Assembly: GCA_944324365.1 (NCBI GenBank)
Contig: CALUWA010000009.1
Location: 1-52,352, forward strand
Direction: 5' to 3'
From: Candidatus Gastranaerophilales bacterium
Lineage (GTDB): Bacteria; Cyanobacteriota; Vampirovibrionia; Gastranaerophilales; Gastranaerophilaceae
DNA: 52,352 bases
Under the pieces are notes generated by a model that saw only the letters and a program-made list of their open reading frames with translations, did not search any database and was not told the origin of the DNA. A program made the position numbers and the translations under genes. How positions within the stretch are numbered: the stretch's first letter is position 1; each line of letters begins with the position of its first letter. Of the stretch, positions 32,247 to 52,147 are shown piece after piece.

Positions 32247-32352
32247 TGGATTGCTTCGCTATCGCTCGCAATGACGCAAAATGTCATTCTGAGGGCTTTA
32301 GCCCGAAGAATCTCTTATAAAAGGAGATCCTTCGCTACGCTCAGGATGACCT
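32247..32352. repeat. Two adjoining palindromic dispersed repeats
   Basis: 32247-32278 is the TGGATTGCTTCGC...CGCAATGACG type also seen at 44145-44170. 32283-32350 is the GTCATTC...CCGAAGAATCTC...GAGATCCTTCGC...CAGGATGAC type also at 43893-43959 and 51896-51960. Both fold on themselves. The rest of 32109-32403 shows no gene. Confidence 0.8.
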
Positions 32353-32403
32353 GTGGAATTTATATATAAGTCCTAATTATTGAATATTAATTTAAAAAAA
32401 CGA

Positions 32404-32431
32404 TTGAAAATTTTCAAAAATGATTTATAAT
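32404..32431 (+). promoter_or_regulatory. Promoter of the G10 leader/prepilin operon
   Basis: TTGAAA (32404-32409), a 16-base spacer and TATAAT (32426-32431). The same TTGAAA/TATACT layout precedes the other G10 prepilin gene. GGAAGGAT is the ribosome binding site for ATG 32466. Confidence 0.75.
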
Positions 32432-32465
32432 AATATATAAGAGTAGAAAAAGGAAGGATGGCACT

Positions 32466-32519
32466 ATGGAAAAGGCAATTATAGCAAGAATCTCAGAAGG
32501 GGGGGGGGCTTCTTTGTAA
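32466..32519 (+). CDS. 17-residue leader peptide ending in a G10-encoded GGG
   Basis: With the ten G residues shown (32499-32508) the ATG gives MEKAIIARISEGGGASL and a stop. The peptide at 52042-52095 has the same length and the same M-x-K-x-x-I-A-R, with GGG at residues 12-14. It has a good promoter and ribosome binding site. Either this is a real small peptide, or it is the truncated off-state of the prepilin gene that follows. Confidence 0.6.
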   Translation: MEKAIIARISEGGGASL

Positions 32520-34173
32520 GGAAACACAAACGTTTCGCCGGTTTCAGCCATTCCAAAATTTATATAAAAGCAACAAATTTTTAAATACGCAAAACGGATT
32601 TTCAGCAGCAGAAATGCTTGTTGTTCTTTTGGTTATATCCTTTTTAATCCTAGCAATGCCGCCTTTAGTACACAAAAAGGTTGTAAAACGAACAACACCA
32701 AATTCTCACGGACGTTATGAATGCTGGATTAGTCCTGACGACGGGCAAGTTTACGAATATTATGCAACATCAACCGAAGGAACAGTAAGCGGATATGAAG
32801 GAACACCAACACGACCGGGAAGACTAGCCCCTGGCGGAGTTTGCCATTTTGATGCGAAAAAAATGGCCGGAAATGCGGCATATTTTATTTTTCAAGCAAT
32901 AGGCGGAGGTGCCGGCGGTTCATATGCGCCGCATGAAAATGGTAATGCTAAATATCAGGGCGAAACAGGAGCTTCATATGATATTACATTAACCACAACT
33001 ACATCAGATCCTGAAGCATCGTATTATTTTAGTTATAAAGAATCATTAGCAAGTGCACCGGATTGGGTTAAAGATAAATGGGTGCCAATACCTGCCAATA
33101 CAGGTAATGCTACGCTTTGTACCGGAGCATGGGAACATACCTGGACAGATGAAGACACAACAGCAACAATACCAACCATTCAGCCAGACGGGACTATAAA
33201 ATATGAAACCGTAGTAATTCCCGGGGAAACTCATCATGAAGAAGGAAACGGAAAATGCGTAGATGCAGATCTTAGCAAAATTACAATTGGGGCAGATGAT
33301 TATTTAAAAATTACAACTGACAAAGGAACTTCATACAGTAAGGTTTCCGTAGGCAATGTTGCTCCATGCTCTATAGAAAGAGATACCGTTACAGATTGTG
33401 CGGCACCGATTTATTCTGCACCGTATCCGAATACAACGCCGACAAATGAGGCTCAGGTTGTTATTAACAGCACAAATGTATTTCCAGCAACGGTTACTTT
33501 AAAAAGAGTTAATGAATTTGATTCTCCTACATTTGGTTATGCGGGAAGCCCGGGAGCAGGTGTTTCAATGTTTCTCCCGTCAATTAAAGAAGATTTATCA
33601 TTTCAACTCGGAGCCGGCGGAAATGCCGGAACCGCAACTTCTTTTAAAGGAGAAGACGGCGAAGATACAATTATAAAATCAGGCAGTAACATTATTTTAA
33701 AAGCTGCCGGAGGAACAGGTATTCTTGGCGGAGCAGCAGGTTCAAGAGTAATTCTTCTTGGTGCAAACACCTGTACAGACACTGCTTTACAAATAGGGAA
33801 CTGCTTAGATGTCGGCGTAGATAATGCTAATCGCTATTCATTAAGCTCCAATTTCAACACAATTCCGGAATTAGATGTAAGCAGCGAAACAAGTTCTGCT
33901 ATCGAAAAATGGTATAGCGGCACAAATCTTTTACCAGGTTCCGGCGGGGATGGAGGATATTCATTTATCAGAGATGTAAGCGGCTATGAAAAAATTCTGG
34001 TATATACAGATGACACATTACGAAATGAACTTGGAACCGAGCAAATTATATCTTATCCATTATTAGTTGATAGTTACACCTGCAATAATAAGATAAGTGA
34101 AACTGTTAATGGTACAACAACAGTTTGCTCGCCTGCAAACGGTTATCCGGGAGCAATAATTATTGTCTGGTAA
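32466..34173 (+). CDS. Large glycine-rich prepilin-like protein 1, out of frame with its leader at a G10 tract
   Basis: The prepilin frame contains NGFSAAEMLVVLLVISFLIL, a prepilin cleavage motif plus hydrophobic helix, so the nominal ATG at 32614 lies inside the helix and cannot be the true start. The next useful start upstream, ATG 32466, is one base out of frame across ten G residues. With nine it reads through to a 44-residue leader and a protein of about 568 residues. The body has HGRYECW after the helix, AIGGGAGGS and other Gly-rich stretches, GEDGEDTIIKS, and ends GAIIIVW. It is first of three related genes. It may be phase-variable, a sequencing artefact or a slippage product. Confidence 0.7.
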
Positions 34174-34182
34174 AGGAGATAT

Positions 34183-35094
34183 ATGCTAAGTTATAAAAAT
34201 AAATTAGGATTTTCACTTTTTGAAGTTGTCGTAACTATGTCAATAGTTGCAATCTTCATTGCAGCCTGTACGAATGTATTTACTCAAAAATACAAAGGGA
34301 AATCCAGCACGCCTATGCATGGCAGATTCGAATGCTACTACAATTCTGCCGGAACCCTGATGCAAAAATATGATGCAGGTACTCCTACTGCAGTAACTAC
34401 CCCATATTGTGAATTTAGTCCTAACAGTGCGGTTGCATATTATATTATTAATGCTGTAGGCGGAGGCGGTGCAGGTGGAACTATACTTGGCGGAACAAAA
34501 GGAGAATATAACAGCGTTTTTATGACGACAATAAACTCCGATTTACAATTATACCCCGGGAAAGGAGCACTTGCGGGCAGCTCCGATGCCAGAGGCGAAC
34601 GTTCATATGTCATGGCTGAACAAATTACCGGAGAAAATCGTGAAATTCTCTCTGTTGAAGGCGGACTTAGTGCTGTCGGTAACAGTGTGAATTTAAATAA
34701 CTGTGATGTTGCATTTGCTGAATATGCTTGTACGCTTACACCAAAATGCACTTCCGATAATGAAACACGCACGGTAAAAGTTGAGTATTGTTCCGAAATT
34801 TGTGCAGATAATAGCTGCTGGGCAGATGAAACACTTAGTTTCAATACTATCTTAGCACAATACAGTGCAGGCCTGCCTTCTTCAAACAATCTTTATTACA
34901 CCAATGCAGCAGGTTATACCTTACATCTTGCAGTTGAAGGGAACAGTACCGAAAATGAAGACATATCAGGCATGATGAATTACTTTGAGGCTCTGAAAGA
35001 ACAAGAAACAACCGGGGCTTATACAGAACATGCAGGAAACGGCGGAGCAAAAGAACAAAACGGAAAAACCGGTGCAATCGTCATTGTATGGTAA
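34183..35094 (+). CDS. Glycine-rich prepilin-like protein 2
   Basis: The 303-residue protein starts after AAAGGAGATAT, nine bases downstream of gene 1. The N-terminus has LGFSLFEVVVTMSIVAIFIA, a prepilin motif and helix; HGRFECYYNSAG follows; then AVGGGGAGGTILGG, several Cys residues in the middle, and a C-terminus GKTGAIVIVW. These shared blocks mark it as a paralogue of its two neighbours. It is probably processed by a prepilin peptidase. The Gly-rich C-terminal part resembles tail-fibre/adhesin glycine-rich domains in style; adhesion is a hypothesis. Confidence 0.8.
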   Translation: MLSYKNKLGFSLFEVVVTMSIVAIFIAACTNVFTQKYKGKSSTPMHGRFECYYNSAGTLMQKYDAGTPTAVTTPYCEFSPNSAVAYYIINAVGGGGAGGTILGGTKGEYNSVFMTTINSDLQLYPGKGALAGSSDARGERSYVMAEQITGENREILSVEGGLSAVGNSVNLNNCDVAFAEYACTLTPKCTSDNETRTVKVEYCSEICADNSCWADETLSFNTILAQYSAGLPSSNNLYYTNAAGYTLHLAVEGNSTENEDISGMMNYFEALKEQETTGAYTEHAGNGGAKEQNGKTGAIVIVW

Positions 35095-35127: not shown

Positions 35128-37557
35128 ATGTATAAAATATTAGATAAAATTAAGTCACAAAAAACCGGTTTTACTTTAATAGAAGTTATGCTTTTGCTGG
35201 TAGTAATATCGCTTATATTTGCAAGTTCCGCATCTATTATTACAAGAAAACATAAATTAAAACCTCATAGAAGTGCACACGGTATATATGTTTGTTATCG
35301 AAATAATGATGATACATTGCATGAAGTTCAATATTCAGGCAGTCAGAAAATATTAGAAAATGATCAAAGAACGAATGCCACATTTACAGAATGCAGTTTC
35401 ACACCGCCTACAAGTGCATTATATTTACATATACAATTAATAGGCGGAGGCGGTGCAGGCGGTAATGCAAACCAGTTAAGTGAAGCAAAAGAAATTATTG
35501 ATTCCGAGATGTCTATTCCGCTTATCAATCGTGACGGCAGCGGAATTTCCAACAGTACCGTCAATAACTTTACAAGTCCAGGCGGTAAAAATCGTTTTTC
35601 GTATACAGCATTTCAACAAATAATGCAAGATCACAATGTACGTATTTTTGGATATGATTTTGCAGGAAATGCAGCACCTGGCGGCAGAATTGAACAATTA
35701 AACACTGTACCGATCAGTACAACAACAAAACTGTTCCAAAGCGGAACATGTCGCCGCGATGACAATTCTGCCATTATGGAGAACGGAGATTTTGTTGAAG
35801 ATCCTACAGATTGCGCAAGAGTTTTAAACTTATTTGAACCGAAAAGTACATCCTGTATTCCAAGAGAACCTATAGGTGACAATTGCCCTATCGTAAAAAA
35901 GAACTGGCGGCCAGGATTTAATTATACGTCCAACATAAGAACTTGCGCCGGAGGCGAAGGCGGTATCGGAGGGATATTCACAACTCCGGTAATAGAGTAC
36001 AAAATCGGTTCACATTACAGACTTGGCACCAGAGAAATTGTAACGCATTTTGCAGATTGGGTAGAAGGTGCATATGATACCAGCCAAATTTTGGAAGGAT
36101 ACGGTATTGATGATAGATTTACAGATACAGACACAGGTGATTTAAGTGATACGGCGGATTTAGGCAACAAATACGGATGCCAAAGAGGTATAACCTACAA
36201 TTGGACTGCACTTGTTCCGGGAACCCATATTTGCAGCGGAGTTCCGCCAGCAGGAGTTAGTTTGGATTTAAACGGTTGCTGGGTAAATGATGTTACCATA
36301 GATGAAAAACTATATAATGGTACAAGATTTTTTGGAACAATGCCTCAAATGGAATATGTATTTGCAGATTCAAATACAACTTGTACACCAAGAGAAGGCT
36401 ACTCAAGCGGACTGCCAAAATGTCCGGATGGCAACCGCGGGATATATTTATGTCAAAACGGAAGTGCTTCTTCCTGCCAATGCTATGACTGGGAAGCCAT
36501 AGGAGTTAATGGACTTACTTTAGGCAGTCCTATTGCGACCGGCGGAAAAGGTGCCGTAGCAAACGGAACTCTTATAGACAGTATGGGGCATATATTATCC
36601 AATGCACAAGATTTTTGTACATCAGAAGACGGTTTAAATGCTGAAAGCAGCAACACTCTTGATTTTACACATTATCCTGGAGCACATGCCTGCGTAAGCG
36701 GAGGACAGTTTAAAGATAAACCATACGGTGCCGGTGTAATTTATGATGACAAAGGTTATTTATCACTTGACCCTGACGGGACACTGGCAGACTGTCCTAA
36801 TTATAACTATACCGGTACAACAACAATATCCTTACCGGTAGCATTTTTCCATAAGGAAGTTCCGTTATATTACGGAGAAGCCGGACAAGCCGGAGCATAC
36901 AAGACTGTATTTGCGAGATCAATAAGTGCAATGGGCACGTTAAAAATGATTCCTGGCAGAGGCGGACAGCCTGCGGCGCAAAGCACACTTGCAGACGAAA
37001 TATATAATCCTGGAGAAGACGGCGAAGACACTATAATAGCCTACAATTGTGAAACCGGCACTTGTGTCAACACAATTAAAGCGGAAGGAGGCAAAGGCGG
37101 CACAAGCCATATTTTAGACAAAATTGAATTTCGTGAACTTACGAATGAAGAAATCAAAAATTATTCTACAGGAGCTGCAACGATTAATTTAGAAGATACA
37201 CTTTCAACTCAATCGTTAAGTTCACAATCAGAATTTAGTTCGCTTGGATTTTTATCAAGTATATCTAATATATCAAATGATACAGGCGAATTACTTTCGG
37301 AAATCCTCGGCAAAAGCGGCGATGGCGGTTATGTGACCCACCATTGCTGGTTGCAGCCACAATATTTTGTATATTCGGCTGATCATGTAGAAATCCCGAA
37401 TTATCCGACATCTGATTATGAAGGTTATACAAACTTCTCTGAAGGTGTCATAACAGGGCTCCCGCAATGTACGGCAAAACCCGGCGGACTTGAAAATCAA
37501 TTCGATGAAGAACCGGGGAAACCGGGCAAATCAGGAGCTATAGTAATTATGTGGTAA
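35128..37557 (+). CDS. Large glycine-rich prepilin-like protein 3
   Basis: An 809-residue protein with a prepilin N-terminus (KTGFTLIEVMLLLVVISLIF), HGIYVCYRNNDD, LIGGGGAGGNAN, about 25 cysteines spread over the body (many likely disulphide-bonded outside the cell), GEDGEDTIIAY, GGKGG and a C-terminus GKSGAIVIMW. It is far longer than ordinary pilins (150-250 residues), so it is more likely a minor tip-type subunit or adhesin. AAAGGAGCAATTA gives a clear start, 33 bases after gene 2. Confidence 0.8.
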   Translation: MYKILDKIKSQKTGFTLIEVMLLLVVISLIFASSASIITRKHKLKPHRSAHGIYVCYRNNDDTLHEVQYSGSQKILENDQRTNATFTECSFTPPTSALYLHIQLIGGGGAGGNANQLSEAKEIIDSEMSIPLINRDGSGISNSTVNNFTSPGGKNRFSYTAFQQIMQDHNVRIFGYDFAGNAAPGGRIEQLNTVPISTTTKLFQSGTCRRDDNSAIMENGDFVEDPTDCARVLNLFEPKSTSCIPREPIGDNCPIVKKNWRPGFNYTSNIRTCAGGEGGIGGIFTTPVIEYKIGSHYRLGTREIVTHFADWVEGAYDTSQILEGYGIDDRFTDTDTGDLSDTADLGNKYGCQRGITYNWTALVPGTHICSGVPPAGVSLDLNGCWVNDVTIDEKLYNGTRFFGTMPQMEYVFADSNTTCTPREGYSSGLPKCPDGNRGIYLCQNGSASSCQCYDWEAIGVNGLTLGSPIATGGKGAVANGTLIDSMGHILSNAQDFCTSEDGLNAESSNTLDFTHYPGAHACVSGGQFKDKPYGAGVIYDDKGYLSLDPDGTLADCPNYNYTGTTTISLPVAFFHKEVPLYYGEAGQAGAYKTVFARSISAMGTLKMIPGRGGQPAAQSTLADEIYNPGEDGEDTIIAYNCETGTCVNTIKAEGGKGGTSHILDKIEFRELTNEEIKNYSTGAATINLEDTLSTQSLSSQSEFSSLGFLSSISNISNDTGELLSEILGKSGDGGYVTHHCWLQPQYFVYSADHVEIPNYPTSDYEGYTNFSEGVITGLPQCTAKPGGLENQFDEEPGKPGKSGAIVIMW

Positions 37558-51191: not shown

Positions 51192-52095
51192 TTACCACGG
51201 ATAACCATCTGGTATCTTCCAGCCGTTTATCTGTATTAATTTTGTACAATAACTGCAATTTTCACAACCCTTATAACATCCCCACTGTCCGGTCTTTAAG
51301 GATTCTCGATTTCCATTCCAATCTAAAACATAAGGCTCTATAAATTCAACACTATTATATGCTTTGCTGCCTTGCGTTTTCTTTTTAACCATCTGAAACG
51401 CAAATTTCTCTCGCGGATTGTATTCATATTTGGCATTTGGATGAAATACAATATCTCCGCCGTTATCGTCTATAGATAAGCGCATCATGGTACCGTTTAC
51501 AAAATATACACAGGCAAATATCTGCCCCCATTTATTATTACACTGTTTTATCTTTGTATATTTAACATAAGGAAGTAAATAGGTTTCCAAGAATGCCTTT
51601 ATTTCATTGTAGCTGTAATTTTTATCTTTTATAACCCAATCGTCAAAGGTACCGTCATAATCCGCGTGTGCACGCCTGAATGCATCGTTTATCTGCGCAT
51701 AAAATACCTGTAATTTCGTTTCTACAACAAGTTTTTGGTATTTGGCAATCAGCATCGGCATTGTCATTGCCGCAACCACGCCAATTATGCCAAGGGTAAT
51801 CAGCACTTCCGCTAGCGTAAACGCCGCTTTCTTTTTGTCATCCTTACAAAGCGAACCGCCGCAACGAAGTGAGGACGTGTGAGCCTGTATGCAGAGCTGA
51901 GCGGTAGCGAAGGATCTCTTATTAATGAGATACTTCGGTGTTGCGCACCTCTGAATGACCGCTTTATATATACTTCGGGCTAAACCCCTTAAAACCCCAG
52001 GCTCGCCATAATGGCAAATGGGCACAAACCCTTGTCCCGACTTAGATGTAGATACCCCCCCCCCGGTATTTCCGCGCTATACTTAACTTTTGCAT
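51192..52095 (-). CDS. Prepilin-like protein out of frame with its leader at a G10 tract
   Basis: The prepilin frame has KKKAAFTLAEVLITLGIIGV, then a body of about 190 residues with Cys pairs near the end (CYKGCENCSYC). No short, ribosome-binding-site-supported start exists next to the motif. The frame runs back through repeat-derived sequence to a GTG at 52025 without a ribosome binding site. The well-supported ATG 52095 (GGAGGAT before it) is out of frame across ten G residues (complement of 52055-52064). With nine it would join to give a leader of about 91 residues. That leader is much longer than the five-residue one at 31226. Confidence 0.7.
51896..51960. repeat. Palindromic dispersed repeat inside the prepilin leader
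   Basis: On the minus strand GTCATTC...CCGAAGTATCTCATTAATAA...GAGATCCTTCGC...GCTCAG, matching 43893-43959 and 32283-32350. It is read in frame as ...ATPKYLINKRSFATAQ... in the leader of the prepilin gene. Confidence 0.8.
52042..52095 (-). CDS. 17-residue leader peptide with G10-encoded GGG (second copy)
   Basis: ATG 52095 gives MQKLSIARKYRGGGIYI and a stop at ten G residues. It aligns without gaps with the peptide at 32466-32519 (M-x-K-x-x-I-A-R; GGG at 12-14; 17 residues). GGAGGAT lies seven to eight bases upstream. Confidence 0.6.
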   Translation of the reverse strand: MQKLSIARKYRGGGIYI

Positions 52096-52118
52096 ACTTC
52101 TATCCTCCATTTTCTATC

Positions 52119-52147
52119 AGTATAAACTATTTTCAATCATTTTTCAA
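52119..52147 (-). promoter_or_regulatory. Promoter of the second G10 leader/prepilin gene
   Basis: On the minus strand TTGAAA (52142-52147), a 17-base spacer and TATACT (52119-52124), the same arrangement as before 32466. Confidence 0.7.

Follow-up and report, generated by a model that had tools for sequence, protein, structure and literature searches.

Poly-G leader cassettes upstream of prepilin genes form a candidate phase-variable family in gut Gastranaerophilales

Results

We identified two copies of a short 5′ cassette, on opposite strands, in the 52,352-nt stretch of DNA analysed here (the window; Table 1). In each, a promoter-like element and a ribosome binding site precede a 17-codon leader frame with glycines 12 to 14 on a G10 run, and a prepilin frame lies one G away. 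A preliminary description of the window had pointed out these elements, together with the alignment of segments 32404-32519 (plus strand) and 52147-52042 (minus strand), and all of them were found again on re-reading. With the G run removed, the upstream halves of the two cassettes align with a score of 33.5, against 9.6 ± 2.6 (maximum 18.5) in 300 shuffles. As this score is far above the shuffles, we consider the two 5′ segments homologous. Two G10 runs were seen in the window, with 0.02 expected.

Table 1. Features of the two cassettes in the window and of the genes associated with them.
Feature	Position	Strand	Basis
Cassette 1, promoter-like element: -35 TTGAAA (32404-32409), 16 nt, -10 TATAAT (32426-32431)	32404-32431	+	Direct reading; alignment with cassette 2 above shuffles
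Cassette 1, Shine-Dalgarno-like AAGGAAGGA	32450-32458	+	Direct reading
Cassette 1, leader frame, 17 codons, present state OFF: MEKAIIARISEGGGASL-stop, ATG at 32466	32466-32519	+	
Cassette 1, G10 tract, putative switch; G9 would be ON	32499-32508	+	
Cassette 1, prepilin-like gene opened by loss of one G, 568 aa including leader; N_methyl at 32584-32658	32509-34173	+	In-silico frame; PF07963 above cut-off
Second prepilin-like gene, probable operon of cassette 1, own start	34183-35094	+	PF07963
Third prepilin-like gene, probable operon of cassette 1, 809 aa, glycine-rich, own start	35128-37557	+	PF07963
Cassette 2, promoter-like element: -35 TTGAAA (52147-52142), 17 nt, -10 TATACT (52124-52119)	52119-52147	-	Direct reading; alignment with cassette 1 above shuffles
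Cassette 2, Shine-Dalgarno GGAGG	52104-52108	-	Direct reading
Cassette 2, leader frame, 17 codons, present state OFF: MQKLSIARKYRGGGIYI-stop, ATG at 52095	52042-52095	-	
Cassette 2, G10 tract, putative switch; G9 would be ON	52055-52064	-	
Cassette 2, prepilin gene opened by loss of one G, 300 aa including leader; N_methyl at 51762-51836	51192-52054	-	In-silico frame; PF07963

Losing one G opens the 568-aa and the 300-aa frame, as had been predicted. Both prepilin genes pass the cut-off of PF07963, the N-terminal methylation motif ([GA]-F-T-x-x-E), and when the 568-aa reading was scanned alone, its score was 18.5, below the cut-off of 21.2. The mature part of the 300-aa prepilin has a DUF6613 match. 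Neither spacer between tract and motif contains an ATG, and that of cassette 2, 77 codons long, is open in the pilin frame only.

These cassettes belong to a much larger set. The window genome (G000; 2.05 Mb in 36 contigs) contains 38 G runs of at least eight. Of these, 32 are followed at a distance of 0-750 nt by a same-strand PF07963 prepilin motif, where 0.42 were expected. Both genes of the preliminary description are thus real members, and its count of two was too low by far, with about 32 in the genome; an upstream G tract equips 32 of the 60 G000 prepilins. Nearly all of the prepilin-linked runs sit in a module comprising a promoter, a ribosome binding site, a leader of 8-15 codons and the G run. 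In alignment profiles this module extends from ~80 nt before the tract to 40-60 nt after it, with background beyond. The earlier claim that the two genes are unrelated beyond the G tract holds for the window pair, whose cassettes come from different leader subfamilies, and fails within a subfamily, where similarity continues for 40-60 nt past the run.

Two leader families dominate in G000, namely family A (MQKSSIARKYRGGG), which is ON at G9 and mostly has G10, and family B (MLKSENTDYTYILQGGG), which is ON at G11 and mostly has G11 and G12, so that ON (G11) and OFF (G12) copies both occur. A third, mixed group includes the cassette at 32404 (MEKAIIARISEGGG, near MKKSIIARISEGGG). The genome has one gene for prepilin peptidase (PF01478). 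MutL is kept in these genomes, so that high slippage cannot be put down to a loss of mismatch repair, a point that counts against frequent switching. At L042 (G000:C3:122303) and at L320 (in genome G077), a substitution or short insertion interrupts the tract (G8AG; G10CA) while the locus is OFF, which may lock the switch.

Some G tracts in G000 lie outside the prepilin genes. Tracts of G11-G14 occur inside surface-glycan genes at L033 (G000:C1, 206675, 208421 and 209277) and L044 (G000:C4, 69191), where the tract-bearing genes comprise GT8- and GT2-type glycosyltransferases and polysaccharide pyruvyl transferase. Glycosyltransferase and polysaccharide pyruvyl transferase genes are classical contingency genes, and those found here are likely to be further phase-variable genes. 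At L039 (G000:C2, 201944), a G9 run lies where electron-transfer-flavoprotein-like beta and alpha (EtfB/EtfA-like) reading frames meet, and one additional G would join the two into 588 aa. The G tracts of L039 and L061 were judged unrelated to the pilin system.

To assign a state to each cassette, the tract was altered in silico by -1, 0 or +1 G and the open frame was picked as the longest of three; a locus was joinable if a frame of at least 120 codons reached the prepilin motif. There were 158 joinable loci, from 18 genomes. At the tract lengths of the assembly consensus, 25 (16%) are ON, 95 (60%) need one G fewer and 38 (24%) need one more, the ON fraction being uncertain because single assembled lengths may be off by one. 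The OFF prepilin genes retain intact frames, and 110 of 133 OFF loci meet an early stop no more than five codons past the tract.

Spacer sequences were compared at 120 loci (8854 codons), giving no stops in the pilin frame versus 1191 in the other two frames. An ATG with a Shine-Dalgarno-like sequence was present within the spacer at only 15 of these loci. Given the absence of spacer stops and the scarcity of spacer starts, the cassette provides the only usable start for most of these pilins. A codon-position test found no constraint in the first 54-60 nt past the tract, so the spacer does not appear to be a conserved domain. Translated pieces of interspersed REP-like repeats are present in 19 of 29 spacers of the window genome. 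One such repeat (CATTCTGAGGGC..GAAGAATCTC..GGATGAC), seen at 32270-32355 of the window and in pilin spacers, stays open in the pilin frame within spacers and is translated as RRISLNKRSFAIAQDD. Unconstrained, repeat-filled spacers would be the expected outcome if prepilin peptidase discards the entire leader part. ON products have about 20-220 residues ahead of the prepilin motif. Type IV prepilins usually have a short leader before the cleavage site, a feature that is not strictly defining, and we infer that prepilin peptidase cleaves such long leaders.

Although few allele pairs were available for comparison, tract length varies between assembled alleles. In an orthologous pair from assemblies G010 and G011, L274 (G10, ON) and L150 (G11, OFF) are 99% identical over 1.1 kb, and 10 of their 11 substitutions fall within 130 bp around the tract, leaving one in the remaining 1018 bp, a clustering that points to cassette conversion. 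Another G010/G011 pair, 97% identical, went from G10 to G11 through a substitution beside the tract, with the same kind of OFF state; two further pairs are unchanged and one has a 4-nt indel just past the tract. G077 has near-identical 5′ modules at L324 (G10, ON) and L332 (G11, OFF), and three cassettes of this genome combine near-identical 5′ modules with different gene bodies and different phases. In a few cases, the alignments indicate that the whole cassette has been copied from one pilin gene to another or swapped between them. In G031, the tracts span G14 to G20. The class 2 leaders of G011 (for example L149 and L150) and the MQNPIIA leaders (L166) contain similar DNA (AAAACNCAATCATAG) that each group reads in a different frame from the ATG, which suggests that the leader is conserved by descent at the DNA level and not as a peptide.

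Of 288 genomes sampled from the family, 94 carry the SD-ATG-leader-G8 pattern, and these come from 18 of 41 genera; a reversed-pattern control gave almost zero matches, and some scattered single matches may be chance or binning errors. Copy numbers are highest in G011 (88), G014 (70), G235 (68) and G254 (66), and may be under- or overestimated because many contigs of G014, G010 and G011 break at or just past a cassette, which is what dispersed repeats would be expected to cause. Outside the family, the genomes sampled from the same order and class had no match to the pattern, and in photosynthetic cyanobacteria it was at background only, comparable with the reversed control. Scanning genome_contigs with the leader motif as a pattern, and viral_contigs with three leaders, also gave no match. 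The leader sequence is lineage-specific and differs between genera. The M-x-K-x-x-I-A-R leader that the preliminary description proposed to seek does recur in relatives, strongly in part of the window's genus and in G021 and with few copies elsewhere; in most other genera it is absent or near chance level, and it was rejected as a universal leader. G291, which belongs to another genus, has one family-A-like cassette (G291:C38:5763) that may stem from transfer or from a mis-binned contig.

Two genomes depart from the general picture. In G033, all 12 loci are at G10 and in the same OFF frame, and it is the only genome with a large number of loci that is uniform. In G021, 18 of 20 loci are at G11, and 17 cassettes are separate small cistrons that are not fused to a pilin. 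All 17 keep the leader and a G11 or G12 run, followed ~145 nt past the tract by a pilin with its own Shine-Dalgarno sequence or start, and a pattern search found a terminator-like hairpin at +70 to +90 in 15 of them. L175-L194 of this genome share a conserved block with CCTCCG and a hairpin (GCCGTGCCAA..GACACGGTGATTTTT), then a separate pilin. Since these 17 pilins have their own start, frame switching cannot directly control them, and this layout is the main unexplained variant.

Discussion

We favor the interpretation that these loci are contingency (phase-variable) pilin genes of one family spread across the genome, switched by slipped-strand mispairing, with the switch placed in a cleaved leader. 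From the sequence comparisons, we put its probability at roughly 0.8. Each gene would be headed by a 5′ cassette with a promoter, a ribosome binding site, a leader of a few codons and 8-20 consecutive G's, and mispairing at replication, a well-established process, would add or remove one G. In silico, one of the three frames carries translation from the leader through the unconstrained spacer into the prepilin, which mostly has no other usable start, while the other frames are predicted to hit a stop, usually close behind the run. Prepilin peptidase would then cut off leader, polyglycine and spacer, leaving a mature pilin without any trace of the switch, and each cell may display a small, changing subset of its pilins. 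The loci share the sequence-level features of contingency loci, namely a coding-region tract beyond chance, a frame switch by one unit and allelic length differences. The preliminary description had raised both a contingency cassette and a conserved leader peptide controlling the pilins. The former gains from the recurrence of the cassette, the intact frames one G away, the natural one-G flips and the exchange of the cassette as a unit. Of the two outcomes that the preliminary description named as refuting it, neither was seen in these assemblies, since the leader turns up again in relatives and tract length is not fixed. The conserved leader peptide does not hold in general, as leader sequences differ between genera, and a role for the leader cistron is still a candidate in G021.

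Going further than phase variation alone, the cassette might be a mobile regulatory unit. Its G run, when transcribed, might stimulate gene conversion and so spread and swap the 5′ module among dozens of pilin genes, and in some species (G021) the cassette would act as a separate leader cistron and not as a frame switch. In the gonococcus, a G-quadruplex upstream of pilE promotes gene conversion. We regard this possibility as doubtful, although not negligible.

The distribution of phases departs from simple neutral slippage. The 25 ON, 95 lose-one and 38 gain-one loci are biased and not random, and neither this bias nor the uniformity of G033 is predicted by such slippage. Three factors could each contribute, namely shared ancestry of the cassettes, selection that favors a tight OFF state and a tendency of long G runs to contract, and binomial p-values on the bias overstate its certainty because the loci of one genome are not independent. 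The strong preference for one OFF frame, at its most extreme in G033 and G021, and the early stops behind the tract would also fit programmed slippage, in which polymerase or ribosome shifts on a run deliberately kept one G off, giving a low, fixed pilin output. This explanation is improbable, however, as ON and OFF lengths are both present within families, near-identical alleles are in different frames and the required shift has opposite signs in different genomes. Most genomes have mixed offsets where a constant one would be needed, and RNA folding downstream of the tract found no general structure that might stimulate a shift (mean z between +0.8 and -0.9).

The G021 cassettes, with their independently started pilins and their hairpins, are also what might be expected of a leader-peptide attenuator, in which a short leader ORF with polyglycine and an early stop regulates the downstream pilin and the G run tunes the effect. 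At all other loci examined, however, leader and pilin form one in-frame fusion and the pilin mostly has no start of its own, the leaders vary between genera and an Rfam search found no family, and we consider such an attenuator very unlikely as an account of the family. The least probable explanation is that homopolymer errors gave rise to the OFF calls and the real tracts keep the frame open. Sequencing of G runs is difficult, all genomes here are assemblies and annotated tract lengths can be wrong (PMC9187656). Against this, hundreds of loci from dozens of assemblies have such runs, leaders and early stops, some genomes are offset in one direction and others in the opposite one, and loci that are 99% identical are polymorphic. 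An assembly artefact cannot produce the cassettes, even if single lengths may be off by one.

The phase-variation reading places the cassette beside several known systems, and from its sequence it appears to work like poly-G phase variation in Campylobacter, Neisseria pilC/opa and the pili of Bifidobacterium. Campylobacter jejuni has many poly-G contingency genes (G8-G13) in a small genome, several of them in surface-glycan genes. The Gastranaerophilales genomes likewise carry many G tracts, some in surface-glycan genes, but in C. jejuni the tracts lie inside unrelated genes, whereas here a single cassette recurs ahead of a single class of protein. Neisseria pilC has a poly-G tract in its signal-peptide region and opa a repeat in its leader. 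Similar to these genes, the cassette has a slippage repeat in the cleaved leader of a surface protein, and opa is also a dispersed family with a common switch, with about 11 copies (PMC3745409). The product of pilC is accessory to the pilus and that of opa is an outer-membrane adhesin switched by a pentamer repeat, while here the switched proteins would be the pilin-like subunits themselves, with a homopolymer ahead of a long disposable spacer. In Bifidobacterium breve, sortase-dependent pili (bbr_0113, bbr_1889) are OFF at the annotated length and ON after losing one G by replication slippage, and the ON length is enriched in vivo (PMC9187656). That system shares with ours an intragenic G run (there G10/G11) in a pilus gene of a gut commensal and an OFF state that is one G too long. 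It differs in being an actinobacterial one with one or two sortase-pilus clusters per genome, in contrast to type IV-like prepilins, up to 88 cassettes per genome and a repeated 5′ module exchanged between genes. The novelty lies in the lineage and the copy number, in the restriction to a single class of proteins, and in a reusable cassette that sits within a long disposable leader. A literature search, which covered few subscription journals, found no paper on phase variation in Gastranaerophilales.

If the favored interpretation is correct, most such genes will be called truncated or given a wrong start codon by annotation pipelines. A reusable cassette sited in the portion of the protein that cleavage discards would also explain how new pilins can be recruited. 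Half or more of the pilin genes in these uncultured gut relatives of cyanobacteria would be under stochastic switching, one of the larger single-class phase-variable repertoires known to us. Such a repertoire would imply that pili are under strong selection, with host immunity, phage or adhesion as examples of its source, in an almost unstudied lineage.
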